This document shows positions 13,823 through 60,292 of a stretch of 64,000 bases of DNA, piece by piece. Positions within the stretch are counted from its first letter, which is position 1. The number at the start of each line of letters is the position of its first letter. The stretch is taken from assembly GCA_902768985.1 (NCBI GenBank), contig CACXNA010000001.1:124001-188000 (forward strand), given 5' to 3'. Source of the stretch: an uncultured Bacteroidia bacterium (GTDB lineage: Bacteria; Bacteroidota; Bacteroidia; Bacteroidales; UBA932). The position numbers were made by a program, and so were the translations under genes. Below the pieces are notes generated by a model, which ran no database searches, was not told the DNA's origin, and was given only the letters and a program-made list of their open reading frames with translations.

Positions 13823-15757
13823 TTAGTCAGTGAGCTTCCACCAGGTTTCCAGGTCGGACGGGGCCCGCCAGTCGCCGCGGGGCGACAGGGAGACGGAACC
13901 GACCTTGGGCCCGTCGGGCAGGCAGGAACGTTTGAATTGCTGGTTGAAGAATCGCTTCAGGAAGGTCTCCAGCCACTTGCGCAGGGTGGCGTCGTCATAG
14001 CTGCCGGCGAAGGCCTTGCGGGCCAGGAAGAGCAGCTTGTCGGGATCGGCGCCGCTGCGGAAGAAGTGATACAGGAAGAAGTCGTGCAGCTCGTACGGGC
14101 CGACGGTGTCTTCCGTCTTCTGGGCGATCTTGCCGTCCTTGTCGGCCGGCAGGAGTTCGGGACTGATCGGGGTGTCCACGATGTCCAGCAGCGTGGCGTG
14201 GATGTCGCCGGCCGCGTCGAACTTGTTGTCCGCGGCCCAGCGGACCAGCGTGCGCACCAGCGTCTTGGGCACGCTGGCGTTGACGCCGTACATGGACATA
14301 TGGTCGGCGTTGTAGGTGCACCAGCCGAGGGCGAGCTCGGAGAGGTCGCCCGTGCCGACGACGATGCCGCCTTCCTTGCCGGCGACATCCATCAGCAGCT
14401 GCGTGCGCTCGCGCGCCTGGCTGTTCTCGTAGGTGAGGTCGTGATTGTTCTCATCCTGGCCGATGTCGGCGAAATGCTGCCGGACGGCGGGGACGATGGA
14501 TATTTCACGGGAAGTGATGCCCAGCTCGCGCATCAGGTCCACGGAGTTGTCGTGGGTGCGGTGCGTGGTGCCGAAGCCCGGCATGGTGATGCCGATGATG
14601 TTCTCACGCGGCAGGCCGAGGGTGTCGAAGGCCAGCACGGTCACGAGCAGCGCGAGGGTGGAATCGAGGCCGCCGGACACGCCGATGACCGCCTTCTTGC
14701 AGCGGATGTGCTCCAGGCGCGTGGTCAGGCCCGCCACCTGGGCGGCGAGGATCTCGCGGCAGCGCACGCCGAGCGCCTCCGGATCGCCCTGGGGGACGAA
14801 GGGATGCGGCTCCACGTAGCGGAGGAGCTTCGCCTCGAAATCCGTCGCGGCGGCTTCGCCGGCGTCCTGCGTGACGTAAGCGGGCAGGGGCCCCTCGAAG
14901 CCGAAGCTGTGCTCCTTGGCGCGCAGGGTGTCCAGGCGCTGGATGTCCACGTCGGCGAGGATGGCGCGGCTGCCGCGTGCGAAGCGCTCGGCTTCGGCGA
15001 GCAGGGTGCCGTTCTCGCAGATGAGCGAGGCGCCGGACCAGACGAGGTCCTGCGTGGATTCGCCTTCGGCGCAGGAAGCGTAGACGTAGGCGGCGTAGAG
15101 CCGGGAAGCGGTGGCGCTCACGAGGCTCTTGCGGTATTCGTGCTTGAAGAGATAATCGTTGCTGGCGGAGAGGTTCAGGATCAGCTGCGCACCGGCCACG
15201 GCGGCCTGCGAGCAGGGGGGAACGGGAACCCACAGGTCCTGGCAGAGCTCGATGGCGGCGAGCGCCTCTCCGATGCGGAAGAGCTGGCGCGTGCCGAGCA
15301 GGACCTCGTCCTGGCCGGCGAAGCGGATGCGCGCACCGGAGGGGGAGAGCACCCGTGCGGAGGCGAACCAGCGCGGCTCGTAGAATTCGTTGTTGCCGGC
15401 GAGATAGGTCTTGGGGACGATGCCGAGAATGCGCCCGGCGCGCAGGGCGACGGCGCAGTTGAAGAGCCGTCCGGCGTGGCGCACGGGGACGCCGATGACG
15501 AGCATCGGCTCCAGCTTGGCGCTGGCGGCGACGATCTCCGCCACGGCGGCTTCCGCGTCGGCGAGCAGGCGCTCCTGGCCGAACAGGTCGGCGCAGGTGT
15601 AGCCGGTCACGCTGAGTTCCGGGAAGACGATGACGGAGGGACGCTGCGCTTTCAGGTCCCGGCAAAGTTGGAGGATTTCCCGGGCGTTCGCCGCCGGGTC
15701 GGCCACGTGCACGCGCGGCATGGCCGCCGCTACACGAATGAATCCAAGACGCTTCAT
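13823..15757 (-). CDS. nadE: glutamine-dependent NAD+ synthetase
   Basis: NadE amidates deamido-NAD to NAD+ using ammonia from glutamine. The N-terminal nitrilase-like glutaminase domain shows VFPELSVTGYT with the catalytic glutamate. The C-terminal synthetase domain carries the PP-loop GVSGGLDSTLAL near residue 360. At 644 residues it is a typical two-domain enzyme. I start at ATG 15757 (MKRLGFIRVA); a frame extension to 15793 would run back through the promoter. A TATATTTG -7 box ends six bases before this ATG, so the mRNA may be nearly leaderless. It diverges from the glutamine-synthetase region. Confidence 0.94.
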   Translation of the reverse strand: MKRLGFIRVAAAMPRVHVADPAANAREILQLCRDLKAQRPSVIVFPELSVTGYTCADLFGQERLLADAEAAVAEIVAASAKLEPMLVIGVPVRHAGRLFNCAVALRAGRILGIVPKTYLAGNNEFYEPRWFASARVLSPSGARIRFAGQDEVLLGTRQLFRIGEALAAIELCQDLWVPVPPCSQAAVAGAQLILNLSASNDYLFKHEYRKSLVSATASRLYAAYVYASCAEGESTQDLVWSGASLICENGTLLAEAERFARGSRAILADVDIQRLDTLRAKEHSFGFEGPLPAYVTQDAGEAAATDFEAKLLRYVEPHPFVPQGDPEALGVRCREILAAQVAGLTTRLEHIRCKKAVIGVSGGLDSTLALLVTVLAFDTLGLPRENIIGITMPGFGTTHRTHDNSVDLMRELGITSREISIVPAVRQHFADIGQDENNHDLTYENSQARERTQLLMDVAGKEGGIVVGTGDLSELALGWCTYNADHMSMYGVNASVPKTLVRTLVRWAADNKFDAAGDIHATLLDIVDTPISPELLPADKDGKIAQKTEDTVGPYELHDFFLYHFFRSGADPDKLLFLARKAFAGSYDDATLRKWLETFLKRFFNQQFKRSCLPDGPKVGSVSLSPRGDWRAPSDLETWWKLTD

Positions 15758-15762
15758 ACACG

Positions 15763-15770
15763 CAAATATA
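15763..15770 (-). promoter_or_regulatory. Bacteroidetes-type -7 box for nadE
   Basis: Minus-strand TATATTTG matches the TAnnTTTG consensus. It ends six bases before the nadE ATG, implying a very short or absent leader. Confidence 0.65.
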
Positions 15771-15907
15771 GCGGATTTGCATAAGCTATGCAAGATATTA
15801 TAATAGTGGTATAATAAAAACTTTTAAAAAGTTTTGAAAAACTCTTGCATTTCCAATTTTTCTTCGTAACTTGCAGTCGAATTTTTGGTTTAAAACAAAG
15901 TTAAGTA

Positions 15908-15985
15908 GTGGCACGCACCCTGAATAATCAGAAGCAGAATTCCCAGAACCAGCAGCAGGTTCCGGGTGCTTCCAGGTGCGTATAA
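15908..15985 (+). CDS. putative Gln/Asn-rich leader peptide
   Basis: This is a 25-codon frame with a GTG start at 15908 and TAA at 15983-15985. An in-frame TAA at 15902 rules out a longer product. Codons 6-17 read NNQKQNSQNQQQ: six glutamines (all CAG) and four asparagines in twelve positions. No SD site is obvious, as is normal in this group. The frame lies about 55 bases before a terminator-like hairpin and 160 bases before the glutamine synthetase start. A 7-base helix (15913-15919 with 15975-15981) encloses the Gln codons. The arrangement fits a leader-peptide attenuator. The GTG start and the missing clear promoter keep this tentative. Confidence 0.5.
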   Translation: MARTLNNQKQNSQNQQQVPGASRCV

Positions 15986-16022
15986 CTCCAGTCCTTATGC
16001 GACACATCATTAAAAGAAGCAC
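15942..16022 (+). promoter_or_regulatory. alternative RNA helices in the glnN leader
   Basis: A hairpin over the last Gln codons pairs CCCAGAACC (15942-15950 region) with GGTTCCGGG (one mismatch, loop AGCAGCA). An overlapping option pairs GTGCTTC (15966-15972) with GAAGCAC (16016-16022). A third pairs ACGCACC (15913-15919) with GGTGCGT (15975-15981). Mutually exclusive helices overlapping a leader reading frame are expected for attenuation; which of them controls the terminator was not resolved. Confidence 0.45.
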
Positions 16023-16039
16023 AATTTGAAAATCAGATA

Positions 16040-16078
16040 AGAGAGGCTGGTCCGGTGGACTAGCCTCTCTACTTTTAT
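16040..16078 (+). terminator. terminator-like hairpin in the glnN leader
   Basis: A 14-base stem with one G-U pair (16040-16053 with 16057-16070) closes a GGT loop and is followed by ACTTTTATAA. The T-run is short for a strong intrinsic terminator, but the stem is very stable. Its place between the leader peptide and the gene suggests an attenuator. Confidence 0.65.
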
Positions 16079-16146: not shown

Positions 16147-18321
16147 ATGGACAGATTTGATTTGGTTAAGGAATCCTTCATGAGAAGGGAGGTTCCTGCA
16201 GAAGTCCCCGCTGGCAAGACTTCCGAGTACTTCGGTGAACTCGTGTTCGACCGAAAGAAAATGTGCAAATACCTGGATGCCGACAGCCTCCAGGCGCTCC
16301 TGGCCTGCATTGAAGGCGGTGAGCCCCTCGACCGCAAGACGGCCGACGGCGTGGCCCGCGGCATGAAAGAATGGGCGATGGAGCACGGCGTAACCCACGT
16401 CACCCACTGGTTCCAGCCCCTGACCGAGGGTACCGCCGAGAAACACGACTCCCTGATCGACTACGACGGCAAGGGCGGCGTCATCGAGACCTTCGACGGC
16501 AAGATGCTCGCCCAGCAGGAGCCGGACGCCTCCTCCTTCCCGAACGGCGGCATCCGCGCCACCTTCGAAGCCCGCGGCTACACCGCCTGGGATCCGACCT
16601 CCCCGGTCTTCATCCTGGACGACACCCTCTGCATCCCGACTGTTTTCATTTCCTATACTGGCGAGGCGCTCGATTACAAGACCCCGCTCAAGAAAGCCCT
16701 CAAGGCCGTCAGCGACGCTGCCGTGCCTATCTGCAAACTCTTCGATCCGGGTGTGTCCAAGGTCTATTCCTACCTGGGCTGGGAGCAGGAGTACTTCCTC
16801 GTCGACGAGGCGCTCTACGCCGCCCGCACGGACCTGATGATCACCGGCCGCACCCTGTTCGGCCACAACTCCTCCAAGAACCAGCAGCTGGACGACCACT
16901 ACTTCGGCGCCATCCCGACCCGCGTGGCCGCTTTCATGCGTGACCTGGAGATCGCCGGCCACCGCCTCGGCATTCCTCTGAAAACCCGCCACAACGAGGT
17001 GGCTCCGAACCAGTTCGAGCTCGCGCCGATCTACGGCGAGACCAACCTCGCCAACGACCAGAACCAGATCGTGATGAACCTGATGGGCCGCATCGCCCGC
17101 AAGCACGGCTTCGTGGTGCTCCTGCACGAGAAGCCCTTCGACGGCGTGAACGGTTCCGGCAAACACAACAACTGGTCGCTCGGCACGGACAAGGGCACGC
17201 AGCTCCTCGCCCCGGGCAAGGATGCCAAGGGCAACCTCCAGTTCGTCACCTTCTTCGTCAATGTCCTGGCCGCCGTGCAGAAGCACAACGCCCTGCTGAA
17301 GGCCTCCATCGCCAGCGCCACCAACGCCCACCGTCTGGGTGCCAACGAGGCGCCGCCCGCAATCGTGTCCGCCTTCCTCGGCCGCACGATGACCGATGTG
17401 CTCCACAAACTGCTTGAGGTTCCGTCCGACACCCCGATCGAGATCGCGGGCAAGAAGGGCAAGAGCGTCGGCCTGGTGGAGATCCCGGAGATCTTCGTGG
17501 ACAACACCGACCGCAACCGTACCTCTCCGTTCGCCTTCACGGGCAACCGCTTCGAGTTCCGCGCCGTCGGTTCCTGCGCCAACTGCGCCGGTGCGATGAC
17601 CACGCTCAACGCCGCCGTGGCCGAGCAGCTCATCGCCTTCAAGGCCGACGTGGAGAAGGAGATCGCCAAGGGCAAGAAGACCAACGTGGCCATCATGGAC
17701 GCCCTGAAGCCCATCATCAAGTCCGTTATCGATACCGTCTGCTTCGACGGCAACGGCTACTCCGAGGAGTGGAAGAAAGAAGCCATCAAGCGCGGCCTCG
17801 ACGTGGAGACCAACGTCCCGAAGATGTTCGCCGAGTTCACCAAGCCCGCCGCCATCGAGATGTTCACCAAGACCGGCGTCTACACCGAGAAGGAGCTGGA
17901 GGCCCGCAACGAAGTGAAATGGGAGACCTATGTCAAGAAGGTCCAGATCGAATCCCGCGTGATGGTCCGCATGGCCCTGAACCACATCGTCCCGGCCGCC
18001 CTCGAGTACAAGGCCAAGCTTCTGAAGGAAGTCGCCCTCGCCAAGGAGGTCTACGGCAACCTGGACAGCTGCACCACCGAGCTGCGCATCCTGGAGGACA
18101 TCAACAAGTATGTGGACGATGTCCGCGAGAAGGCCACCGCGATGAAGGAGGCCCGCAAGGCCGCCAACGCCATCGAGGACGGGTACAAGCGCGCCCTGGC
18201 CTACCACGAGATCGCTGAGAGCCTGTTCGCGCTGCGTCGTCCGATCGACAAGCTCGAAGAGGTGGTCGACAACAAGATGTGGCCGCTGCCGAAGTATCGC
18301 GAGATGCTCTTCATCAGCTAG
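16147..18321 (+). CDS. glnN: glutamine synthetase, type III
   Basis: This enzyme makes glutamine from glutamate, ammonia and ATP. The 724-residue length and the motifs KTRHNEVAPNQFELAPIY and NGSGKHNNWSLGT mark the large GSIII class usual in Bacteroidales rather than the 450-residue GSI. The first ATG (16147) is chosen over the GTG six bases upstream. It opens a plus-strand run with gltB, gltD, pyrG and purF, so the cell makes glutamine and then uses it in the same gene neighbourhood. Control may come from the leader with its Gln-rich peptide and hairpin. Confidence 0.96.
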   Translation: MDRFDLVKESFMRREVPAEVPAGKTSEYFGELVFDRKKMCKYLDADSLQALLACIEGGEPLDRKTADGVARGMKEWAMEHGVTHVTHWFQPLTEGTAEKHDSLIDYDGKGGVIETFDGKMLAQQEPDASSFPNGGIRATFEARGYTAWDPTSPVFILDDTLCIPTVFISYTGEALDYKTPLKKALKAVSDAAVPICKLFDPGVSKVYSYLGWEQEYFLVDEALYAARTDLMITGRTLFGHNSSKNQQLDDHYFGAIPTRVAAFMRDLEIAGHRLGIPLKTRHNEVAPNQFELAPIYGETNLANDQNQIVMNLMGRIARKHGFVVLLHEKPFDGVNGSGKHNNWSLGTDKGTQLLAPGKDAKGNLQFVTFFVNVLAAVQKHNALLKASIASATNAHRLGANEAPPAIVSAFLGRTMTDVLHKLLEVPSDTPIEIAGKKGKSVGLVEIPEIFVDNTDRNRTSPFAFTGNRFEFRAVGSCANCAGAMTTLNAAVAEQLIAFKADVEKEIAKGKKTNVAIMDALKPIIKSVIDTVCFDGNGYSEEWKKEAIKRGLDVETNVPKMFAEFTKPAAIEMFTKTGVYTEKELEARNEVKWETYVKKVQIESRVMVRMALNHIVPAALEYKAKLLKEVALAKEVYGNLDSCTTELRILEDINKYVDDVREKATAMKEARKAANAIEDGYKRALAYHEIAESLFALRRPIDKLEEVVDNKMWPLPKYREMLFIS

Positions 18322-18363
18322 TTATCAATCATCATTGTAAGTATTTCTTTAGAAACACACTAG

Positions 18364-22839
<4,476 letters not shown>

Positions 22840-22845
22840 CGCCTT

Positions 22846-24201
22846 ATGGGAGACTACAAAGCATTTTTGACGATACCCCGCAAGGAAGCCGGCTACCGGC
22901 CGGTTCATGACCGTATCCAGGATTTCGGGGAAGTGGAGCAGACGCTCAACGAGGGCGACCGCCGGCTGCAGGCGTCTCGCTGCATGGACTGCGGCGTGCC
23001 CTTCTGCAACTGGGCCTGCCCACTGGGCAACCGTCCGCCGGAGTGGAACGACGCCGTGTATAAAGGGGACTTCGAGCTGGCCTACCGCCTGCTCAACTCG
23101 ACCAACGATTTCCCGGAGTTCACCGGACGCGTGTGCCCGGCGCTCTGCGAGAAGGCCTGCGTGCTCAACCTGACGATGCACGAGCCTACGACCAACCGCG
23201 AGAACGAAGCGGCCATCACGGAAATCGCTTACCGCGAGAACTATGTGCACCCGGTTGCGCCGGAGCGCAACGGTCGCAAGGTGGCCGTGGTCGGCGCGGG
23301 CCCCTCGGGCCTGGCCGCGGCCAACCAGCTGAACCGCAAGGGCTACACCGTGACGGTCTTCGAGAAGAACGAGAAGGCCGGCGGCCTGCTGCGGTTCGGC
23401 ATTCCGAATTTCAAGCTGAACAAGACCGTCATCGACCGCCGCATCGCGCTGATGGAGCAGGAGGGGATCACCTTCCGCTACGGCGAGGAAGTGGCGCCGG
23501 ACGCGCTGCCGAAGGGCTTTGACGCCTACGTCATCGCCACCGGCACCCCGACGGCGCGCGACCTGCCCGTGCCCGGGCGCGAGCTGAAGGGCGTCTACTT
23601 CGCCCTCGAGCTGCTCGCGCAGCAGAACCGCGTCCTGTACGGCGCTGAGGTCGACGCCGCCCACCGCGTGAGCTGCAAGGGCAAGGACGTGCTGGTCATC
23701 GGCGGCGGCGACACGGGTTCCGACTGCATCGGCACGGCGCACCGTCAGGGCTGCAAGTCCGTGATGCAGATCGAGATCATGCCCAAGCCGCCCGTAGGGC
23801 CGGACGACCCGGCCAACCCTTGGCCGAACTGGCCGCGCACGCTCAAGACCTCCTCTTCGCACGAAGAGGGTTGCGTGCGGCGCTGGAACATCAACACGCT
23901 CCGTTTCGTGGGCGAGAAGGGCAAGCTGACCGGCGTGGAGATCCAGCCCATCGACTGGAAACCCAACCCCGAGGGCGGACGCCCGCTGATGGTTCCCGCC
24001 GGCGAGCCGGAACTGGTCAAGGCCGACATCGTCCTGCTGGCGATGGGCTTCCTGAAGCCGCAGCTGCCCGAGGTGGGGGAGAATGTCTTCTTCGCCGGCG
24101 ACGTGCAGAGCGGCGCCTCCCTGGTGGTCCGCGCGATGGCTTCCGGCCACGCTGCCGCGGCCGCCGTGGACGCATACTTCAAAAAACCTAAAAAGAAATG
24201 A
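22846..24201 (+). CDS. gltD: glutamate synthase small subunit
   Basis: GltD passes electrons from NAD(P)H through FAD and Fe-S clusters to GltB. The 451-residue protein starts with a cysteine-rich adrenodoxin-like segment (RCMDCGVPFCNWACP and CPALCEKAC), then an FAD Rossmann motif VAVVGAGPSGLAAA near residue 147 and a nucleotide motif VLVIGGGDTGSDC near residue 285. It is six bases after gltB, and its stop overlaps the pyrG start. Confidence 0.96.
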   Translation: MGDYKAFLTIPRKEAGYRPVHDRIQDFGEVEQTLNEGDRRLQASRCMDCGVPFCNWACPLGNRPPEWNDAVYKGDFELAYRLLNSTNDFPEFTGRVCPALCEKACVLNLTMHEPTTNRENEAAITEIAYRENYVHPVAPERNGRKVAVVGAGPSGLAAANQLNRKGYTVTVFEKNEKAGGLLRFGIPNFKLNKTVIDRRIALMEQEGITFRYGEEVAPDALPKGFDAYVIATGTPTARDLPVPGRELKGVYFALELLAQQNRVLYGAEVDAAHRVSCKGKDVLVIGGGDTGSDCIGTAHRQGCKSVMQIEIMPKPPVGPDDPANPWPNWPRTLKTSSSHEEGCVRRWNINTLRFVGEKGKLTGVEIQPIDWKPNPEGGRPLMVPAGEPELVKADIVLLAMGFLKPQLPEVGENVFFAGDVQSGASLVVRAMASGHAAAAAVDAYFKKPKKK

Positions 24202-25817
24202 TGAACACGAAGTATATCTTCATAACGGGCGGCGTGGTCTCGTCGCTGGGCAAGGGTATCATCTCCGCCAGCCTGGGCAAATTGCTCCAGGCCCGCGGAT
24301 TCAAGGTGACGATCCAGAAGTTCGACCCCTATATCAACATCGACCCGGGGACGCTCAATCCCTACGAGCACGGTGAGTGCTACGTGACGGCCGACGGCAT
24401 GGAGACGGACCTGGACCTTGGTCATTACGAGCGCTTTACGGGCATCCACACCACCCGCGAGAACTCCATCACCACGGGCCGTATCTACAAGACGGTCATC
24501 GACCGGGAGCGTCGGGGCGACTACCTCGGCAAGACCATCCAGGTCGTCCCGCACATCACCGACGAGATCAAGCGCCGGATGCTGCGCAAGGACGTGAAGG
24601 GGGAGGATCTCGACTTCGTGATTACGGAAGTGGGCGGCACGATCGGTGACATCGAGAGTGCGCCGTTCATGGAGGCCATCCGCCAGCTGCGCTGGCAGCT
24701 CGGCCGCGACTCCGTCTGCGTCCACCTGACCTATGTGCCTTACCTGAAGGCCGCCGAGGAGCTGAAGACCAAGCCCACGCAGCACTCCGTCAAGGAGCTG
24801 CAAGGGATGGGGATCCAGCCCGACATCCTGGTGCTCCGCACTGAGCGCCACCTGGACGACGCCGTGCGCATGAAGGTCGCTTCCTTCTGCAACGTGGACC
24901 TCGAGTGCGTGGTGCAGAGCGAAGACCTGCCGAGCATCTACGAGGTGCCCGTGAACATGCAGCGCCAGGGCCTCGACGCGGCCATCCTGCGCAAGATCGG
25001 CATCCCCGTGGGGGAGACGCCCGCCATGAAATCCTGGCACGACTTCCTCGACAAGCAGGCGAACGCGCACCGGCTGGTGCACGTGGCCCTCGTGGGCAAA
25101 TATGACCTCCAGGATGCCTACAAGAGCATCCGCGAGAGCCTGAACCTCGCCGGTATCTACGACGAGGTGAAGGTGAAGATCCACTTCATCAACAGCGAAG
25201 GCATCACGCGGGAGAACGTGGCGGAGAAGCTCGCCGGCATGGCCGGCGTGGTGATCTGCCCGGGCTTCGGGCATCGCGGCATCGCGGGCAAGATCCTCGC
25301 CGCGGAGTTCGCCCGCACGCACGACCTCCCTTGCTTCGGCATTTGCCTGGGCATGCAGATGATGGTGATCGAGTTCGCCCGCGACGTGCTCGGCCTCGCC
25401 GACGCCGACAGCAGCGAGATGAACCCCGACACGCCGCACAACGTGATCGACATCATGGAGGAGCAGAAGAACATCACCCAGATGGGCGGGACGATGCGGC
25501 TCGGCGAGTATCCCTGCCAGCTCCGCGCCGGCAGCCGCGCCGCGGAGGCGTACGGCGGCCAGGAGAGCATCCGGGAGCGCCACCGCCATCGCTACGAGTT
25601 CAACAACAAGTACCGCAAGGATTACGAGAAAGCCGGCATGCAGTGCGTGGGTGTGAACCCCGACGCCGACCTGGTGGAGATCGTGGAGATTCCGGAGCTG
25701 CGCTGGTATATCGGCACGCAGTTCCATCCCGAGTACGCCTCGACGGTCCTGCATCCGCATCCGCTGTTCATGAGTTTTATCAAAGCCTGTATCGCAAATG
25801 GAAACGTTGAAGCATGA
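24198..25817 (+). CDS. pyrG: CTP synthase
   Basis: PyrG aminates UTP to CTP with glutamine nitrogen. The 539-residue protein has the synthetase domain starting FITGGVVSSLGKGI and the C-terminal class I glutaminase domain with the nucleophile in GICLGMQMM and the His-Glu pair in QFHPEYAS. The start ATG (24198) overlaps the gltD stop; ATG 24201 is an alternative. The 3' end overlaps purF by 20 bases, so expression with the GS/GOGAT genes is likely. Confidence 0.97.
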   Translation: MMNTKYIFITGGVVSSLGKGIISASLGKLLQARGFKVTIQKFDPYINIDPGTLNPYEHGECYVTADGMETDLDLGHYERFTGIHTTRENSITTGRIYKTVIDRERRGDYLGKTIQVVPHITDEIKRRMLRKDVKGEDLDFVITEVGGTIGDIESAPFMEAIRQLRWQLGRDSVCVHLTYVPYLKAAEELKTKPTQHSVKELQGMGIQPDILVLRTERHLDDAVRMKVASFCNVDLECVVQSEDLPSIYEVPVNMQRQGLDAAILRKIGIPVGETPAMKSWHDFLDKQANAHRLVHVALVGKYDLQDAYKSIRESLNLAGIYDEVKVKIHFINSEGITRENVAEKLAGMAGVVICPGFGHRGIAGKILAAEFARTHDLPCFGICLGMQMMVIEFARDVLGLADADSSEMNPDTPHNVIDIMEEQKNITQMGGTMRLGEYPCQLRAGSRAAEAYGGQESIRERHRHRYEFNNKYRKDYEKAGMQCVGVNPDADLVEIVEIPELRWYIGTQFHPEYASTVLHPHPLFMSFIKACIANGNVEA

Positions 25818-27558
25818 GTGTGGCGTGGCGATGATCCGCCTGCTGAAACCGCTGTCGTATTATAAAGAGAAATACGGCACGGAACGGTACGCCCTGAACA
25901 AGCTCTACCTGCTGATGGAAAAGCAGCACAACCGCGGCCAGGAAGGCGCGGGTGTGGGTTGCGTCAACCTGGACGCGCCGGTGGGCGAGGAGTACATGTT
26001 CCGCGAGCGGGCGATGGGCAAGGACGCGATCACCGAGGTGTTCAAGGCCATTGACGGCTCCTTCCTGGGCCATCTCTACATGGGACACCTCCGCTACTCG
26101 ACCACGGGCAAGAGCGGACTGCAGTTCGTGCATCCTTTCCTGCGCCGCAACAACTGGCGCGCGAAGAACCTCTGCCTGTGCGGCAACTTCAACATGACCA
26201 ATATCGACGAGGTCTTCCGTTTCCTGACGGCTCAGGGCCAGTCTCCCCGCATCATGGGCGATTCCTACATCACCCTGGAGCTGATGGGCCACCGCCTCGA
26301 CCGCGAGGTCGAGCGCCTCTACTCCATCGCGCGGGAGCTGGGCCTGGAGGGCGTCAAGATCACGGAATTCATCGACGACCACGTGAAAATGGGGAACGTG
26401 CTGCGCTCGACGATGCCGCATTTCGACGGCGGCTACGTCATGTGCGGCCTGACGGGCAGCGGCGAAATGTTCGCCGTGCGCGACCCCTGGGGCATCCGCC
26501 CCGCGTTCTGGTACCAGGACGACGAGATCGTCGTCGTGGCCAGCGAGCGCCCCGTCATCCAGACGACCTTCGACCTGCAGGCCGACGACATCCATGAGCT
26601 CCGTCCCGGTCAGGCCCTGATCGTGACGAAGCACGGCAAAATGGAGCTGGAGCAGATCCAGCATCCGAAAGAGAACAGCGCGTGCTCCTTCGAACGGATC
26701 TATTTCAGCCGCGGCTCCGACCGCGACATCTACCGGGAGCGCAAGCGCCTGGGTGAGCAGCTCACCCCCGCCATCATGAAGGCGATCGACGGCGACGTGG
26801 CGCATTCCGTATTCTCTTATATTCCGAACACGGCCGAAGTGGCCTTCTATGGTATGACGGAGGGCGTACGCCGGCTGGACCACGACGTGCGGATCGAGAA
26901 AGTCGTGGTCAAGGACATCAAGCTGCGTACCTTCATCACGGAAGGGGACGAGCGCAACGACCTGGCCGCCCACGTCTACGACATCACCTACGGTTCCCTG
27001 GAGCCGGGTGTGGACAACCTGGTCGTGATCGACGACTCGATCGTCCGCGGTACGACCCTGCGGGAGAGCATCTTCAAGATCCTCGACCGCCTGCATCCGA
27101 AGAAGATCGTGATGGTGTCGAGCGCCCCGCAGATCCGCTACCCGGACTACTACGGCATCGACATGTCGCACCTCGAGGAGCTCTGCGCCTTCCGCGCCGC
27201 CATCGCCCTCCTGCAGGAGCGCGGCATGCGGCACCTGATCGCCGAAATCTACCAGGCCTGCAAGACGGATCCGCTGTCCAACAACCATGTGCGGAACGTC
27301 TATGCGCCCTTCTCCGTGGAGGAAATCAACGCCAAGATCGTGGAGATGCTCCGCCCGGAAGGGATGCAGGCGCCCGTCGAGCTCGTGTTCCAGAGCATCG
27401 AGGGCCTGCACGCCGCCTGCCCGAACCATCCCGGCGACTGGTACTTCACCGGACGTTATCCGACCCCCGGCGGCGTCCGCCTCTGCAACGAAGCGTTTAT
27501 CGCTTATGTGGACCGGTCCGGCATCCTGAATGGAGCCACCGACATGCCCCGACAGTGA
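25798..27558 (+). CDS. purF: amidophosphoribosyltransferase
   Basis: PurF starts purine synthesis by moving glutamine nitrogen onto PRPP. The catalytic cysteine is Cys8 (HECGVAM), which implies removal of a short propeptide. KQHNRGQEGAGV follows in the glutaminase domain, and the PRPP loop VVIDDSIVRGTTL lies near residue 410. At 586 residues it is longer than the E. coli enzyme but resembles the long form seen in Bacteroidales. The start lies within the pyrG coding end. It closes the dense part of the glutamine operon. Confidence 0.93.
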   Translation: METLKHECGVAMIRLLKPLSYYKEKYGTERYALNKLYLLMEKQHNRGQEGAGVGCVNLDAPVGEEYMFRERAMGKDAITEVFKAIDGSFLGHLYMGHLRYSTTGKSGLQFVHPFLRRNNWRAKNLCLCGNFNMTNIDEVFRFLTAQGQSPRIMGDSYITLELMGHRLDREVERLYSIARELGLEGVKITEFIDDHVKMGNVLRSTMPHFDGGYVMCGLTGSGEMFAVRDPWGIRPAFWYQDDEIVVVASERPVIQTTFDLQADDIHELRPGQALIVTKHGKMELEQIQHPKENSACSFERIYFSRGSDRDIYRERKRLGEQLTPAIMKAIDGDVAHSVFSYIPNTAEVAFYGMTEGVRRLDHDVRIEKVVVKDIKLRTFITEGDERNDLAAHVYDITYGSLEPGVDNLVVIDDSIVRGTTLRESIFKILDRLHPKKIVMVSSAPQIRYPDYYGIDMSHLEELCAFRAAIALLQERGMRHLIAEIYQACKTDPLSNNHVRNVYAPFSVEEINAKIVEMLRPEGMQAPVELVFQSIEGLHAACPNHPGDWYFTGRYPTPGGVRLCNEAFIAYVDRSGILNGATDMPRQ

Positions 27559-27600
27559 CGCTCGCGTAACTATTCATTAAAATATTGAGAGAGAGTGACT

Positions 27601-27640
27601 TGCGAATTCTTTGAAATTCGCATGATAGGGGGATTTTTTT
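27601..27640 (+). terminator. possible terminator after purF
   Basis: An 8-base stem TGCGAATT/AATTCGCA (27601-27608 with 27615-27622) is followed ten bases later by GATTTTTTT. The distance between stem and T-run is not canonical, so this may instead be a leader structure of the P-II gene. Confidence 0.35.
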
Positions 27641-27681
27641 GTTTTTTCGAAAGTTGTTAACCATTTTAAGTTAGTAGTGTT

Positions 27682-28032
27682 ATGATGAAAAAAATTGAAG
27701 CCATTGTGCGTAAGACGCACTTTGAGGATGTCAAGCAAGCGTTGTTCGACGCCGACATCAACTGGTTCTCCTACTCTGAGGTCAAGGCCATCGGGCAGGA
27801 CCGGGAGGATCGCATCTACCGCGGTGTGATGTATTCCACCGACGTCATTTCCAGGATCGAGATTACCATCGTCTGCCGTGAGCAGTTCGTGGAGCCGGCC
27901 ATCCAGGCCATCATGGCCGCCGCCCGCACGGGCGAGGTCGGCGACGGGCGCATCTTCGTCAGCCCGGTCGACGACACCTGGTCCATCCGGACCGGCGAGC
28001 ACGGCGACACTGTCCTGCGGGACAAGAAGTAG
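27682..28032 (+). CDS. P-II family nitrogen regulator
   Basis: P-II proteins are trimeric sensors of 2-oxoglutarate, ATP and ADP that gate AmtB and other targets. The 116-residue protein has the family opening KKIEAIVR and the C-terminal TGEVGDGRIFVSPVDD. The T-loop reads AIGQDREDRIYRG, one residue shorter than in E. coli GlnB and without its usual sequence; Tyr46 aligns with the modifiable Tyr51. It lies 41 bases before amtB, so the classical glnK-amtB pair is present. Two ATGs stand in tandem at 27682. Confidence 0.93.
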   Translation: MMKKIEAIVRKTHFEDVKQALFDADINWFSYSEVKAIGQDREDRIYRGVMYSTDVISRIEITIVCREQFVEPAIQAIMAAARTGEVGDGRIFVSPVDDTWSIRTGEHGDTVLRDKK

Positions 28033-28073
28033 TTTTGGTTAGTAGTAGTGTAAACCTTTAAAATTAGAATGTT

Positions 28074-29294
28074 ATGGAAGAATTAGCTATATCTCTCGAT
28101 ACTGTTTGGATGTTGCTCGCAGCCATGTTGGTTTTCTGGATGCAACCGGGATTCGCCCTCTGTGAGGCCGGTTTCACGCGCAGCAAGAACTCTGTCAATA
28201 TCCTGATGAAGAACTTTGTGGACTTCATCCTGGGTTCCCTCCTTTTCTTCTTTGTCGGTTTCGGCTTCATGTTCGGCAGCGACGGCGCCGGCTTCATCGG
28301 TGCGCCCAACTGGGGCGACCTGTCCTTCTACAAGGGTGACCTCCCCGTCGAGGGCTTCCTGGTCTTCGAGACGGTCTTCTGCGCCACGGCCGCGACCATC
28401 GTCAGCGGTGCCATGGCTGAGCGTACCAAGTTCAACATGTACCTGGTCTACAGCGCCGTGATTTCGCTGCTCATCTATCCCGTCGAGGGTCACTGGACCT
28501 GGGGCGGTGGCTGGCTCAGCGAAATGGGCTTCCACGATTTCGCCGGTTCGGCGATCGTCCACAGCGTCGGCGGCGTGCTGGCCCTGATCGGCGCCATCGC
28601 CCTCGGCCCGCGTATCGGCAAGTACGGCAAGGACAAGAAGAGCCGCGCCATCCCGGGCCACAACCTGGCCCTTGCTGCGCTCGGCGTCTTCATCCTTTGG
28701 CTCGGATGGTTCGGTTTCAACCCGGGCAGCCAGCTGGCCGCCAGCGGGGAAGTGAACCGCACCGCCATCTCCCATGTGTTCCTGACCACCAACCTGGCAG
28801 CTGTCGCCGGTGGCGCTGCCACGATGTTCCTGACCTGGTTCAAGTACGGCAAGCCGTCCCTCTCCCTGATGCTCAACGGTATCCTGGCCGGTCTGGTCGG
28901 CATCACCGCCGGCTGTGACGTGGTCTCCCCTTGGGGCGCCGTCATCATCGGTTTCGTCTGTGGTATCGTGCTGGTGTTCGCCATCGAATTCATCGACCAC
29001 AAGCTGCACATCGACGACCCGGTGGGTGCTTCCTCCGTGCACGGTGTGTGCGGTATCCTCGGTACGCTGATGACCGGTCTGCTGGCTACGGACGGCGGCC
29101 TCTTCTACGGCGGCGGCTGGCACTTCTTCGGTGTGCAGGCCCTCGGTATCGTGGTCATCGACCTCTGGGCGGCCGTCTGCGGCTTCCTGCTCTTCTTCGG
29201 CATCAAGAAGTTCTGCGGCCTGCGCGTCGAACCGCGCGTGGAGGAGGAAGGCCTCGATGTCTACGAGCACGGTGAAGGCTGCTACAACAACTAA
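28074..29294 (+). CDS. amtB: ammonium transporter
   Basis: AmtB is an inner-membrane ammonium channel. The 406-residue protein has about eleven hydrophobic segments. The twin pore histidines are likely His163 (SAIVHSVGG) and His323 (SSVHGVCG). GHWTWGGGWL, near residue 140, carries the usual Trp-rich recruitment-site region. The P-II gene directly upstream suggests its activity is blocked by P-II when nitrogen is plentiful. An outer-membrane barrel gene follows after 33 bases. Confidence 0.96.
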   Translation: MEELAISLDTVWMLLAAMLVFWMQPGFALCEAGFTRSKNSVNILMKNFVDFILGSLLFFFVGFGFMFGSDGAGFIGAPNWGDLSFYKGDLPVEGFLVFETVFCATAATIVSGAMAERTKFNMYLVYSAVISLLIYPVEGHWTWGGGWLSEMGFHDFAGSAIVHSVGGVLALIGAIALGPRIGKYGKDKKSRAIPGHNLALAALGVFILWLGWFGFNPGSQLAASGEVNRTAISHVFLTTNLAAVAGGAATMFLTWFKYGKPSLSLMLNGILAGLVGITAGCDVVSPWGAVIIGFVCGIVLVFAIEFIDHKLHIDDPVGASSVHGVCGILGTLMTGLLATDGGLFYGGGWHFFGVQALGIVVIDLWAAVCGFLLFFGIKKFCGLRVEPRVEEEGLDVYEHGEGCYNN

Positions 29295-29327
29295 TCCATT
29301 TGTTCAACTGTTAAATTGTATTACCTT

Positions 29328-30044
29328 ATGAAAAAGATATTTACCATTCTCGCTGTTGCTGTCCTGTCTTTGAACGCCCTGATTCCTGCCAAGGCACAGG
29401 ACAAGGTGGAGGCTTCCATCGGCGCCGACTTCGTCAGCCGTTACATCTGGCGTGGCCAGGACCTGGGCGGCGTGTCCTTCCAACCGACGCTCGGTCTGGA
29501 CTGGAAGGGCCTGAGCCTGTCGGCCTGGGGTTCGGTAGGCATCGCCAATCCGGCCGACACGAAGGAGTTCGACCTGACGCTCAGCTACACGATCGGCGGC
29601 TTCAACATCGGCGTGACGGATTACTGGTTCGATGCGGGTCTGGACCCGCTGAACCGCTACTTCATGTATCGTTCCGACTGCACGAACCATGTCTTCGAGG
29701 CCAACATCGGTTATGATTTCGGCTTCGCCGCCATCCAATGGTACACCAACTTCGCCGGCAACGACGGCGTGAACCCCGCCGGTAAGCGCGCGTTCAGCAG
29801 CTACGTCGAGCTCAGCGCCCCGTTCTCCCTGGCCGGTGCGGACTGGACGGCCGCCGTCGGCGCGGTCCCGTTCGCCACGGATTTCTACGGCACGGAGAAG
29901 TTCGCGCTGGTGAACATCTCGGTGACGGCCTCGAAGGAGATCACCGTCACGGACACGTTCTCCATCCCCGTCTTCGCGCAGGTGGCTGCCAACCCGTACA
30001 CCCGGGAGGCCTTCTTCGTGATTGGCTTTACGCTGCAGCCGTAG
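29328..30044 (+). CDS. outer-membrane beta-barrel protein, TorF/Gcw_chp-like
   Basis: This 238-residue protein has a signal peptide (MKKIFTILAVAVLSLNALIP then AKAQ) and alternating strands ending in a C-terminal FTLQP, as in outer-membrane barrels. The segment SIGADFVSRYIWRGQDLGG resembles the TorF/Gcw_chp family. It follows amtB by 33 bases, so a role in letting ammonium or another nitrogen source cross the outer membrane is a fair guess, not shown. ATG 29328 is preferred to the TTG at 29316. Confidence 0.75.
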   Translation: MKKIFTILAVAVLSLNALIPAKAQDKVEASIGADFVSRYIWRGQDLGGVSFQPTLGLDWKGLSLSAWGSVGIANPADTKEFDLTLSYTIGGFNIGVTDYWFDAGLDPLNRYFMYRSDCTNHVFEANIGYDFGFAAIQWYTNFAGNDGVNPAGKRAFSSYVELSAPFSLAGADWTAAVGAVPFATDFYGTEKFALVNISVTASKEITVTDTFSIPVFAQVAANPYTREAFFVIGFTLQP

Positions 30045-30078
30045 CGTAATTGATAGTAATCATCATTCGTTTTTTATA

Positions 30079-30104
30079 GTCATTCCGGGCTTGACCCGGA
30101 ATCT
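30079..30104 (+). repeat. GTCATTCCGGG..CCCGGAATC repeat
   Basis: A 26-base imperfect palindrome between the barrel gene and asnB. Related copies lie at 33727-33752, 42023-42046 (reverse) and 45159-45184 (reverse). Confidence 0.85.
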
Positions 30105-30131
30105 ATCCAACAGGAATAAAACAGTAAGCTT

Positions 30132-31799
30132 ATGTGTGGAATAGTCGGTATTTTCAATGTCAAAGAACAGTCTGACGCCCTGCGTCGGAAGGCCCTGGAA
30201 ATGAGTCGCAGGATCCGCCATCGCGGACCGGACTGGAGCGGCATCTGGTGTGGTGGCAGCGCCATCCTCTGCCACGAGCGCCTGAGCATCGTGGACCCCA
30301 AATCGGGCGGACAGCCCCTGATCTCCCCGGACGGGAAGCAAGTGCTGGCCGTGAATGGCGAGATCTATAATCACCAGGAGATCCGCCGCCGCTACGCCGG
30401 GAAATACGATTTCCAGACGGGGAGCGACTGTGAAGTGATTCTGGCCCTTTACCGCGATAAAGGGCCGGATTTCCTGGAGGATCTCAGCGGCATCTTCGCC
30501 TTCGCGCTCTACGACGTGGAGAAGGATGCCTTCCTGATCGCCCGCGACCCCATCGGCGTGATTCCGCTCTACATCGGTTTCGACGACGCCGACGGTAAGG
30601 TCTACGTGGCCAGCGAGCTGAAGGCCCTGGAAGGGCAGTGCGAGCGCTACGAGCCCTTCCTGCCGGGCCACCTCTACTGGAGCCGCGAGCCGGGCGTGAA
30701 ACGTTGGTACACGCGCGACTGGATGGAGTACGAGGCCGTCAAGGACGGCCCCGCCTCCACCCTTGCCGTGCGTGAGGCGCTGATGGATGCCGTGAAGCGG
30801 CAGCTGATGTCCGACGTGCCCTACGGGGTGCTGCTTTCCGGCGGTCTGGATTCTTCCGTGATCTCGGCCATTGCCGAGAAATACAGCGCCATGCGCATCG
30901 AGGACGATTCCAAGACGCGCGCCTGGTGGCCGCGCCTGCACTCTTTCGCCGTGGGCCTGAAGGGCGCGCCCGACCTCGAGAAGGCGCGGCGCGTGGCCGA
31001 GCACATCGGCACCGTCCACCACGAGATCAACTATACCATCCAGGAGGGCCTGGACGCCATCCGGGACGTGATCTATTATACGGAGACGTATGATGTCACG
31101 ACCATCCGCGCCTCCACGCCGATGTACCTGCTGGCGCGCGTGATCAAGTCGATGGGTATCAAGATGGTGCTCTCCGGCGAGGGCGCGGACGAGATCTTCG
31201 GCGGCTACCTTTATTTCCACAAGGCGCCCGATGCGCGCGCCTTCCACGAGGAGACGGTCCGCAAGCTTTCCAAGCTGCATCTCTACGACTGCCTGCGCGC
31301 CAACAAGAGCCTCTCCGCCTGGGGCGTCGAAGGCCGCGTGCCTTTCCTGGACAAGGAGTTCCTGGACGTGGCGATGCGCCTGAATCCCGAGGCGAAGATG
31401 TGCCCGGGCGCGACCATTGAGAAGAAGATCGTGCGCGAGGCCTTCGCCGACATGCTGCCGGAGGAGGTGGCCTGGCGGCAGAAGGAGCAGTTCAGCGACG
31501 GTGTCGGCTACTCCTGGATCGATACGCTGAAGCAGCTCACGTCCGAGGCCGTCACCGACGAGCAGATGGCGCACGCCGCGGAACGCTTCCCGGTGCATCC
31601 GCCGCAGTGCAAGGAGGAGTACTACTACCGTTCGATTTTCGCGGAGCTCTTCCCGAGCGAGAGCGCGGCTCGCGCCGTGCCCAGCGAGGCCAGCGTGGCG
31701 TGCTCGACGGCCATCGCGCTCGAGTGGGACGCCGCTTTCAAGGGGAAGAACGACCCGAGCGGCCGCGCCGTGGCAGGCGTTCATGAGCAGGCCTATTGA
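30132..31799 (+). CDS. asnB: asparagine synthetase B, glutamine-hydrolysing
   Basis: AsnB makes asparagine from aspartate, ATP and glutamine. The catalytic Cys2 starts the N-terminal glutaminase domain (MCGIVGIFN). The synthetase domain has the PP-loop LLSGGLDSSVIS near residue 235 and LSGEGADEIFGGY near residue 350. The 555-residue length is normal. It sits in the glutamine cluster, after amtB and before glmS, with a dispersed repeat in the 87-base upstream gap. Confidence 0.96.
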   Translation: MCGIVGIFNVKEQSDALRRKALEMSRRIRHRGPDWSGIWCGGSAILCHERLSIVDPKSGGQPLISPDGKQVLAVNGEIYNHQEIRRRYAGKYDFQTGSDCEVILALYRDKGPDFLEDLSGIFAFALYDVEKDAFLIARDPIGVIPLYIGFDDADGKVYVASELKALEGQCERYEPFLPGHLYWSREPGVKRWYTRDWMEYEAVKDGPASTLAVREALMDAVKRQLMSDVPYGVLLSGGLDSSVISAIAEKYSAMRIEDDSKTRAWWPRLHSFAVGLKGAPDLEKARRVAEHIGTVHHEINYTIQEGLDAIRDVIYYTETYDVTTIRASTPMYLLARVIKSMGIKMVLSGEGADEIFGGYLYFHKAPDARAFHEETVRKLSKLHLYDCLRANKSLSAWGVEGRVPFLDKEFLDVAMRLNPEAKMCPGATIEKKIVREAFADMLPEEVAWRQKEQFSDGVGYSWIDTLKQLTSEAVTDEQMAHAAERFPVHPPQCKEEYYYRSIFAELFPSESAARAVPSEASVACSTAIALEWDAAFKGKNDPSGRAVAGVHEQAY

Positions 31800-31826
31800 G
31801 TTTTTGCGGAATTCTTGCCATCTTTG
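31795..31826 (+). promoter_or_regulatory. possible promoter for glmS
   Basis: CATCTTTG (31819-31826) matches the -7 consensus TAnnTTTG in seven of eight positions that matter less the first T. A TTG at 31795-31797 lies 21 bases upstream. The glmS ATG is 26 bases downstream. Confidence 0.4.
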
Positions 31827-31851
31827 CATGTTATAACAGAATTATTACAGT

Positions 31852-33696
31852 ATGTGTGGTATTGTTGGATATGTGGGTGGCCGGCAGGCCTACCCGATTC
31901 TGATCAAAGGACTGACCCGGCTCGAGTACCGGGGATATGACAGCGCCGGCGTGGCGTTGATTAACGACAGCGGCGATCTGGTCGTCTACAAGACCAAGGG
32001 CAAGGTCAAGGACCTGGAGGCTGCGGCGGCGGACAAGAATGTGTCCGGCAGCACGGGCATCGCCCACACCCGCTGGGCGACGCACGGCGAGCCGAGCGAC
32101 GTCAATTCGCATCCCCATTATTCCGAGAATCATCAGCTCGCCCTGATCCACAACGGTATCATCGAGAACTACCAGTCCCTGAAGACGGAGCTCACCCGCA
32201 AGGGCTATCATTTCCAGTCCCAGACGGACACGGAGGTGGTCATCCAGCTCATCCAGTATATGATGGATTCGCGCAAGGTGTCTTTCGACAAGGCCGTGCC
32301 CATGGCGCTCAAGCATGTCGTCGGCGCCTACGCGCTCGTCATCATGGACAAGAACCAGCCGGACAAGCTGATCGCCGCCCGCAAGGGCAGCCCGCTCATC
32401 ATCGGCGTGGGAGAAGGGGAGTATTTCGTCGGTTCCGACGCGTCTCCGATCATCGAGTATACCAATAAGGTTGTGTACCTGGGTGAGGAGCAGATCGCTT
32501 TCATCCAGCGCGGCGAGGATCTCCGCATCACGGACCTGCGCAGCGTCGAGCAGACAGCCGAGGTCCGGGAGCTGGAACTGAGCCTGAGCGAGATCGAGAA
32601 GGGCGGCTTCCCGCATTTCATGCTGAAGGAGATTTTCGAGCAGCCGCGCACGCTGCGCGCTTCCATGCAGGGCCGCCTGCATCCCGAGCTCGGCGAGGTC
32701 AAGCTTTCCGGTGTCATCGACAACCGGGAGCGACTGCTGAACGCTCAGCGTTTCGTCATCTGCGCCTGCGGTACTTCCTGGCACGCCGGCCTGATCGGCA
32801 AGTATATGATCGAGGAGCTGACGCGCAAGCCTGTTGAGGTGGAGTACGCGTCCGAGTTCCGCTATCGCCGTCCGGTCATTTATCCGACGGACGTCGTGAT
32901 TGCCATTTCCCAGTCCGGCGAGACGGCCGACACGCTGGCCGCCGTGAACCTGGCCCGCGAGTCGGGCGCCTTCCTGTTCGGTATCTGCAACGTGGTGGGT
33001 TCTTCCATCGCCCGCGCCACGGACACCGGCTGCTATACGCACATCGGTCCGGAGATCGGTGTCGCTTCCACCAAGGCGTTCACCGCCCAGGTGACGACGC
33101 TCTTCTTGCTCGCGATGAGCCTGGCCGAGCAGCTCGGCACCGTCTCTGACGAACGTCGCGCCGCCCTGATCCGGGAGCTGCAGAACATTCCCGACAAGAT
33201 TGCCAAGATCCTCGAGCACGACCAGCAGATCGCCGACCTGGCGAAGGTCTTCACCTATACGCACAATTTCCTCTACCTGGGCCGCGGTTTCAATTATCCG
33301 GTCGCCCTGGAGGGTGCGCTGAAGCTGAAGGAAATCTCTTATATCCACGCCGAGGGCTACCCGGCCGCCGAGATGAAGCACGGCCCGATCGCCCTGATCG
33401 ATGAGGAGATGCCGGTGGTCGTGATCGCGCCGCGCCGCGGTAATTACGAGAAGATTCTTTCGAATATTCAGGAGGTTAAGGCCCGCAAGGGCCGCATCAT
33501 CAGCGTAGTCACGGAAGGGGATACCGACGTGAAGACCCTGTCCGACTGGTCCTTCGAGATCCCGGACACGGAGGAGTGCTTCGAGCCGATCCTTTCGATT
33601 GTTCCGCTCCAGCTGCTGGCCTACCACGTCGCCATCGCCAAGGGCCGCGACGTCGACCAGCCCCGCAACCTCGCGAAGTCTGTGACGGTGGAGTAA
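31852..33696 (+). CDS. glmS: glutamine-fructose-6-phosphate aminotransferase
   Basis: GlmS makes glucosamine-6-phosphate for peptidoglycan and lipopolysaccharide. Cys2 (MCGIVGYVGG) is the glutaminase nucleophile. TRWATHGEPS and the sugar-isomerase (SIS) domains with CGTSWHAG near residue 306 and SQSGETADT near residue 350 follow. The C-terminus LAKSVTVE is the conserved family end. At 614 residues it is full length. It is the last gene of the glutamine cluster and is followed by repeats and the toxin-antitoxin/restriction island. Confidence 0.97.
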   Translation: MCGIVGYVGGRQAYPILIKGLTRLEYRGYDSAGVALINDSGDLVVYKTKGKVKDLEAAAADKNVSGSTGIAHTRWATHGEPSDVNSHPHYSENHQLALIHNGIIENYQSLKTELTRKGYHFQSQTDTEVVIQLIQYMMDSRKVSFDKAVPMALKHVVGAYALVIMDKNQPDKLIAARKGSPLIIGVGEGEYFVGSDASPIIEYTNKVVYLGEEQIAFIQRGEDLRITDLRSVEQTAEVRELELSLSEIEKGGFPHFMLKEIFEQPRTLRASMQGRLHPELGEVKLSGVIDNRERLLNAQRFVICACGTSWHAGLIGKYMIEELTRKPVEVEYASEFRYRRPVIYPTDVVIAISQSGETADTLAAVNLARESGAFLFGICNVVGSSIARATDTGCYTHIGPEIGVASTKAFTAQVTTLFLLAMSLAEQLGTVSDERRAALIRELQNIPDKIAKILEHDQQIADLAKVFTYTHNFLYLGRGFNYPVALEGALKLKEISYIHAEGYPAAEMKHGPIALIDEEMPVVVIAPRRGNYEKILSNIQEVKARKGRIISVVTEGDTDVKTLSDWSFEIPDTEECFEPILSIVPLQLLAYHVAIAKGRDVDQPRNLAKSVTVE

Positions 33697-33752: not shown

Positions 33753-33791
33753 CGTCATTCGCCGGCCCCACAGTCGGCGAATTTCGTATTG

Positions 33792-60164: not shown

Positions 60165-60172
60165 TATATTTG
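60165..60172 (+). promoter_or_regulatory. -7 box for the SRP RNA gene
   Basis: TATATTTG matches TAnnTTTG. The RNA's likely 5' end (60177) lies five bases downstream. Confidence 0.65.
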
Positions 60173-60176
60173 CAGC

Positions 60177-60273
60177 GGGAAAGTCGTACACGACCAGCTC
60201 CCTCTGAACTCCCCCAGGGCCGGAAGGCAGCAAGGGCAGGAGGTTGTAGCGGTGCGATGTGCTAAGCTTTCCC
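60177..60273 (+). ncRNA. ffs: signal recognition particle RNA, small bacterial type
   Basis: The 4.5S-type SRP RNA binds Ffh and targets nascent membrane proteins. The conserved apical motif is present as GGGCCGGAAGGCAGCAAGG near 60218. The 97-nt RNA starts GGGAAAG and ends CTTTCCC (60267-60273), which pair to close the helix, and TTTTTT follows as a terminator. A perfect -7 box is just upstream. Length and structure fit the short bacterial form. Confidence 0.92.
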
Positions 60274-60292
60274 TTTTTTGTATTCTATCGGG

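Follow-up and report, generated by a model that had tools for sequence, protein, structure and literature searches.

The trp, his, leu, thr and phe leaders of Proteobacteria are ribosome-mediated attenuators of amino-acid operons. Glutamine also controls glutamine synthetase at the RNA level through glutamine riboswitches, ligand-binding RNAs that are not known to carry a run of Gln/Asn codons. The leader described here, located upstream of glnN in an uncultured Bacteroidia bacterium, has in common with the Proteobacterial attenuators a run of regulatory codons in a short frame, an intrinsic terminator, a competing structure and genes of the same amino acid's metabolism. It differs in that it would read Gln and Asn, in that its genes belong to nitrogen assimilation and the amidotransferases, and in that its competing structure is a pairing between an apical loop and the terminator arm, whereas theirs is a hairpin containing that arm. 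With the glutamine riboswitches it would share RNA-level control of glutamine synthetase, but it has no Rfam match.

In the same phylum, leader-peptide candidates of Flavobacterium psychrophilum (PMC9723704) and sORFs in 5′ UTRs of B. thetaiotaomicron (PMC7366714) are likewise short frames before operons for which attenuation was suggested; the available excerpts of both papers deal with other genera, name no Gln/Asn leader and describe no conserved structure. The LEU element of Actinobacteria (PMC1262725) also combines a leader peptide carrying regulatory codons with a conserved pseudoknot; according to its excerpt, however, it concerns leucine, and what takes part in its base stem is the Shine-Dalgarno box of leuA and no terminator. 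The uORFC-8-2 motif before cysS (PMC8632094), as excerpted, is another comparative-genomics find with a regulatory-codon leader frame, a stem structure and a terminator, but for cysteine and in Rhodobacterales. In the open-access literature searched, we found no leader-peptide attenuator reading glutamine or asparagine and no paper in which 'glutamine codons' occurs together with the terms leader peptide and attenuation; neither 'glutamine' nor 'Bacteroid-' appears in the main text of PMC2965389. An earlier, sequence-only reading of this DNA had known of no described Gln-reading leader of this kind in Bacteroidales. The proposed attenuator would work in a known way and would be a variant in its antiterminator, its regulon and the amino acids that it reads.

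We call the window the whole stretch of 64,000 nucleotides (64 kb) that was analysed; it belongs to a genome of 2.35 Mb, in which a GlnRS gene is present. The leader region contains the following features.

15845–15873, + strand: putative promoter of Bacteroidetes type in −33/−7 layout, TTG at 15845–15847, 19 nt, TAACTTG at 15867–15873 (from sequence)
15908–15985, + strand: leader peptide frame, GTG start, MARTLNNQKQNSQNQQQVPGASRCV, TAA stop (from sequence; kept in relatives)
15923–15958, + strand: Gln/Asn-rich codons 6–17, NNQKQNSQNQQQ, proposed stall site (from sequence and aligned peptides)
16040–16078, + strand: predicted intrinsic terminator, stem 16040–16070, weak T tail 16071–16078
16147–18321, + strand: glnN, type III glutamine synthetase (ORF, Pfam GSIII_N)

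The sequence-only reading had proposed the layout of amino-acid attenuation from, among others, three elements: a GTG frame of 25 codons with six Gln and four Asn in twelve of them, a 14-base terminator-like stem after it, and a type III glutamine synthetase gene behind. All three were recovered. The ten Gln and Asn codons all fall inside codons 6–17, the predicted hairpin has 14 pairs, 8 of them G-C (dG −25.0 kcal/mol), and the N-terminal domain of the glnN product matches Pfam GSIII_N with an E-value of 6e-74. Directly 3′ of the hairpin stands ACTTTTATAA; we agree with the earlier judgement that the T-run is weak in the window copy, while several relatives have runs of at least six T. The doubt over the GTG start is answered by relatives with ATG at the equivalent position. 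The doubt over a promoter is answered by the putative element listed above, which ends about 34 nt 5′ of the start codon; TAnnTTG, the form of its −7 box, is present within the 55 nt preceding the start codon of 16 of 26 leaders, where shuffles would give 2.7. The Bacteroidetes promoter consensus quoted in the excerpt of PMC7366714 is TTTG / TAnnTTTG. The folding energy of the 271-nt leader is better than that of 200 out of 200 dinucleotide shuffles (z −4.5). With our own detector, run on both strands, this is the one Gln/Asn-rich short ORF in the 64-kb window with a terminator-like hairpin behind it; three further such ORFs come without the hairpin.

Four structural features bear on how the leader might work.

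15913–15981, + strand: helix enclosing the Gln codons (predicted; comparative support weak)
15966–16022, + strand: proposed antiterminator stem-loop, outer stem of 7 bp and inner stem of 10 bp, dG −15.0 kcal/mol (folding, covariation)
15988–15993, + strand: apical-loop segment CCAGTC, able to pair with the terminator 5′ arm
16045–16050, + strand: GGCTGG in the terminator 5′ arm, alternative partner of the loop

Folded one by one, the leaders form a two-part stem-loop 3′ of the Gln codons and then the terminator. RNAalifold on alignment A2 returned the terminator and small hairpins only, missing the long stem-loop because MAFFT misaligns its 3′ arm. When 50 leaders are aligned to the model, an alignment that is fitted to the structure and leans towards it, 84.3% of cells pair (72.5% in shuffles), 28 of 31 pairs have changed on both sides, and doubly changed cells number 194, against 65 in shuffles and at most 69 in slid versions. 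MAFFT alignment A3 agrees in direction, though its figures are smaller: 78.7% of cells paired against 74.9% and 21 doubly changed cells against 9.1 expected; 7 of its pairs have changed on both sides, which 96 of 500 shuffles reach. Exchanging arms among 38 leaders weakens the stem-loop (z −10.4) as well as the terminator (z −10.3). The hairpin between the frame and the first gene covaries in relatives.

The helix that had been drawn around the Gln codons fares differently. It is predicted at −28.4 kcal/mol for the stretch, a fold that untranslated RNA would therefore favour, and it shares bases with the downstream stem-loop, which makes the two mutually exclusive, as the earlier reading had said of its alternatives. 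In comparison, however, it is the weakest part of the layout: arm swapping gives z −2.9, whereas two of four control regions reach −3.6 and −4.3 (the other two −1.2 and −0.6). Of the layout first proposed, the terminator and a competing structure stand, both covarying, and the likely antiterminator is the downstream stem-loop. A classical 2:3 hairpin containing the 5′ half of the terminator is absent, the stem-loop stopping short of 16040; this sets the leader apart from the classical sub-type, not from the mechanism as a whole.

Stem-loop and terminator could be linked through the apical loop, whose motif is CCAGYC. In 52 of 54 distinct leaders this loop segment finds, at the best offset, its full complement in the terminator 5′ arm, a competing pairing that lies outside the model; in the other two (L037 and L181) five of six bases are complementary, and the set leaves out L070, L072 and L100, whose loop and terminator sequences are others and pair more weakly (−6.6 to −10.3 kcal/mol). 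Changes are compensated between the partners: CCGGYC occurs with GGCCGG, ACGGCC with GGCCGU and CCGGUC with GACCGG. Only one of 2000 swaps matched or beat the leaders' own pairing, which at −11.8 kcal/mol far exceeds the −7.7 kcal/mol of shuffled regions. Loop and terminator arm are 46–61 nt apart in 44 of 46 leaders. The last Gln pair precedes the loop segment by 24–31 nt in 30 of 46, so that a stalled ribosome would leave the stem-loop largely free. A weak point is that the stop codon has no constant position relative to the loop, falling before, in or after it. In the window, the loop lies immediately 5′ of the 3′ arm of its stem, and its pairing with the terminator would thus form an H-type pseudoknot; the energy of this pairing, −9.1 kcal/mol, adds up with that of the stem-loop to roughly that of the terminator, the pseudoknot penalty not counted. 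As a separate observation, the L070 and L072 leaders before glnN (genomes G097 and G133) are rich in Lys and Gln, FQKKQKRSQAQSWQG.

Taken together, we are confident that the leader is a ribosome-mediated transcription attenuator sensing charged tRNA-Gln and, in many copies, charged tRNA-Asn as well. Polymerase would start about 30 nt 5′ of the GTG and transcribe the leader. With charged tRNA plentiful, the ribosome would pass the Gln/Asn codons and reach the frame end. There it would cover or disrupt the stem-loop together with the CCAGYC motif, leaving the terminator free to fold and end transcription before glnN. Were charged tRNA-Gln or tRNA-Asn scarce, the ribosome would stall within the run of Gln and Asn codons. 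The stem-loop, lying ahead, would then form, and its loop would pair with the 5′ arm of the terminator, probably in an H-type pseudoknot, allowing polymerase to continue into glnN and the glutamine island. If the frame were left untranslated, the enclosing helix would block the antiterminator stem-loop.

The same elements could be arranged without a pseudoknot, the loop becoming free to pair with the terminator arm only once the stem-loop has opened, which would make the latter an anti-antiterminator. The complementarity is compatible with either geometry, stem-loop and terminator do not overlap, and 19 of 46 lowest-energy folds do not hold the pairing bases in the apical loop. We nonetheless think this arrangement unlikely, since the other 27 folds hold at least five of these bases in the apical loop, as the window does, immediately 5′ of the stem 3′ arm and in keeping with an H-type pseudoknot; were concealment of the bases its role, the stem-loop would be expected to have them paired.

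Much less plausible is a glutamine-binding riboswitch, or another ligand-binding RNA, with an incidental reading frame. Its appeal is that a structured leader and a terminator precede a glutamine synthetase gene, and that glutamine riboswitches of the glnA and Downstream-peptide motifs have been treated in cyanobacterial work. Against it, no Rfam family passes its threshold at the leader, where the models of these two motifs and the T-box model gave no match and lax limits yielded only a microRNA family, with an E-value of 1.3 and far below its threshold. Stem sequences differ freely among leaders, conservation is highest in the loop and at the core of the terminator, and the frame, its start and its Gln/Asn density are themselves conserved, with exchange of CAA and CAG in distant copies.

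That conservation was followed upstream of glnN, in the preferred reading the first gene under attenuator control. A nucleotide search with the leader as query brought up only 2 relatives among 40, because the leader diverges fast; relatives were hence sought through the GlnN protein. By this measure the closest named ones, Candidatus Cryptobacteroides species among them, are Bacteroidales MAGs from rumen and gut, and we term the group Cryptobacteroides-like. The sample comprised 80 regions upstream of same-genus glnN genes. Among judged upstreams of glnN genes with at least 84% identity and the N-terminus present, 20 of 21 carry a Gln/Asn-rich frame, which begins about 186–244 nt 5′ of glnN; L095 is the exception, L049 was too short to judge and G015:C4 is absent from the sample. 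Loss of the frame or its codons in close relatives had been named beforehand as refuting the idea, which thus came through. By our own reading, such a frame is present in 28 of all 80 upstreams and lacking in 51, the last one being too short. Those without include L095, nine of a more distant glnN group, and L101 and L104, which have another kind of leader; some frameless glnN genes sit behind another gene, which in G001 and G146 is asnB with a leader of its own (L190 with L073, L191 with L074).

Across 17 aligned leaders the frame measures 24–26 codons, GTG and ATG starts alternate at one position, and Gln is CAG throughout; CAA and CAG are mixed in three distant leaders. The nearest relative, with 98% glnN identity, differs by a single CAG in the frame. 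Synonymous changes make up 322 of 769 single-base codon differences in pairwise comparison and 19 of 50 between nearest pairs, where 22% is expected. Several leaders contain more Asn than Gln codons. Two candidate signals were dropped: exclusive use of CAG is ordinary here (149 CAG against 6 CAA in the island genes), and the preference for AAT (38 AAT and 19 AAC in leaders, 21 and 163 in genes) goes with A/T-rich third positions in other leader codons too.

It is similarly improbable that the nascent peptide itself arrests the ribosome, in place of codon-specific stalling on uncharged tRNA. The C-terminal CV is indeed conserved in the closest leader group; outside it the ends differ (LIASV, RLLRVLFPVVRHK, LCSIHQS), and the feature common to all is Gln/Asn density.

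Other leader types were seen along the way. Before glnN paralogs, L101 and L104 (genomes G125 and G078) have a different short frame with FDFDYLY, MRTLLIAFDFDYLYVTIPSDNFLI and MTTSTKYFDFDYLYGRVHVATD, followed by an inverted repeat and a T-run; this coding pattern was seen in 3 of 200 genomes of the genus, in 2 of the 3 before glnN, and is possibly an attenuator for other amino acids. The glnN upstreams L068, L069 (G058, G106) and L075 (G052) show a terminator-like hairpin and no visible Gln/Asn frame, and are perhaps degenerate attenuators.

Behind the leader, glnN opens a one-strand cluster (16147–33696) whose genes produce or use up glutamine or ammonium; downstream of glnN the intergenic gaps range from −20 to 123 nt.

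18364–22839, + strand: gltB (ORF, family search)
22846–24201, + strand: gltD (ORF, family search)
24198–25817, + strand: pyrG (ORF, family search)
25798–27558, + strand: purF-like gene (best NCBIfam model, below cut-off)
27682–28032, + strand: PII gene (Pfam P-II passed; best NCBIfam model below cut-off)
28074–29294, + strand: amt (ORF, family search)
29316–30044, + strand: ORF between amt and asnB
30132–31799, + strand: asnB (ORF, family search)
31852–33696, + strand: glmS (ORF, family search)
33757–33782, + strand: terminator-like hairpin 3′ of glmS, possible end of the island

The + strand between 16000 and 34300 has two other terminator-like sites: the terminator of the leader itself and, within amt, one at 28690. 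A glutamine-dependent NAD synthetase gene (CN_hydrolase and NAD_synthase domains; 13823–15793) diverges upstream. Elsewhere in the window, at 60170–60277, lies a Bacteroidales small SRP RNA (Rfam RF04183, 104.5 bits).

Covariance model R1, trained on 23 glnN leaders, begins 3′ of the Gln codons and so excludes both the codons and the gene; it was searched in 300 same-genus genomes. We inspected 40 matches, chosen by us and not at random: 20 second loci or new genomes and 20 full-length weaker matches, none a training locus, though some are close kin of a training locus (L174 of L046, L381 of L065). In 24 of the 40, a frame with at least six Gln+Asn codons ends at or in the structure, and each of these 24 stands directly 5′ of a homologue of a nitrogen gene of the window: glnN in 12, PII then amt in five (L177, L178, L179, L375, L377), asnB in five (L183, L188, L190, L191, L376), gltB in one (L176) and a purF-like gene in one (L189). 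Thus the layout first proposed is also supported by leaders before genes other than glnN, and all these genes make or use the same amino acid. The downstream proteins are 64–95% identical to those of the window, the five PII loci scoring best to the amt behind PII. The remaining 16 matches had neither such a frame nor a match to the window's nine island proteins. Fisher's test of frame against nitrogen gene (24/24 against 0/16) gives p = 1.6e-11 if the matches are independent, which they are only in part, some being related; among the inspected matches the association appears as a strong pattern. R1 matches occur in 220 of the 300 same-genus and 315 of 393 same-order genomes, bare terminators being among the inspected ones; covariance-model E-values are far too optimistic for terminator-like sequence, so our calls rest on inspection.

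A terminator acting with an sRNA or a non-functional upstream frame, its Gln/Asn richness due to chance or low complexity, is the least credible explanation, for although CAG repeats are of low complexity and could expand, AAT and AAC codons are interspersed among them, a similar detector finds 0 of 49 such frames in glnN upstreams mostly of other families, and among the inspected matches 24 of 24 with a frame, against 0 of 16 without, precede nitrogen genes.

Beyond the genus the leader is rare in our searches, and since weak copies score inside the chance range, absence elsewhere is not proven. In 393 same-order genomes nothing but the window exceeded 48.0 bits. A strict detector that misses Asn-rich leaders found 0 of 49 in glnN upstreams (2 of the 49 same-genus), asnB and PII upstreams gave 0 of 29 (3 same-genus; 10 more without a start found were left out), and none of 29 same-order R1 loci had a leader, the match being assumed mid-locus, so that loci at contig ends may have been missed. 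Exceptions outside the same-genus searches are three MAGs (L243, L244, L269) deposited under the names Porphyromonadaceae, Muribaculaceae and Bacteroidaceae. Model R2 added two genomes of one other family (L396, L398); in these an Asn-rich frame precedes glnN, the loop reads CCAGCC and the terminator arm GGCTGG. At two further R2 loci (L404, L406), a frame with at least six Gln+Asn codons had no nitrogen gene visible behind it.

The window has one leader and the same genes have their own elsewhere, so a single leader may serve the whole fused island, whose co-transcription is putative. In genome G158, PII (L377) and asnB (L376) have separate leaders. In the gap before PII in the window (27559–27681), the largest in the island, lies an inverted repeat (GCGAATT/AATTCGC) with a T-run further on; five other genomes carry a separate Gln/Asn leader before PII.

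With somewhat more confidence than doubt, we propose regulon-wide control by charged tRNA-Gln and tRNA-Asn through leader peptides in Cryptobacteroides and some other Bacteroidales. The leader would head each nitrogen transcription unit, one for the fused island and separate ones where the genes are dispersed. Its antiterminator would be a pseudoknot: a stem-loop gated by the ribosome would use its loop to capture the 5′ arm of the terminator. This RNA is a compact candidate for a ribosome-controlled pseudoknot antiterminator, and its presence would predict which operons respond to glutamine shortage. If the regulon reading is true, these bacteria would take translation capacity for glutamine as the measure of their nitrogen status. 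Were the attenuator confirmed, glutamine as the ribosome sees it would tune nitrogen assimilation in these gut and rumen Bacteroidales.
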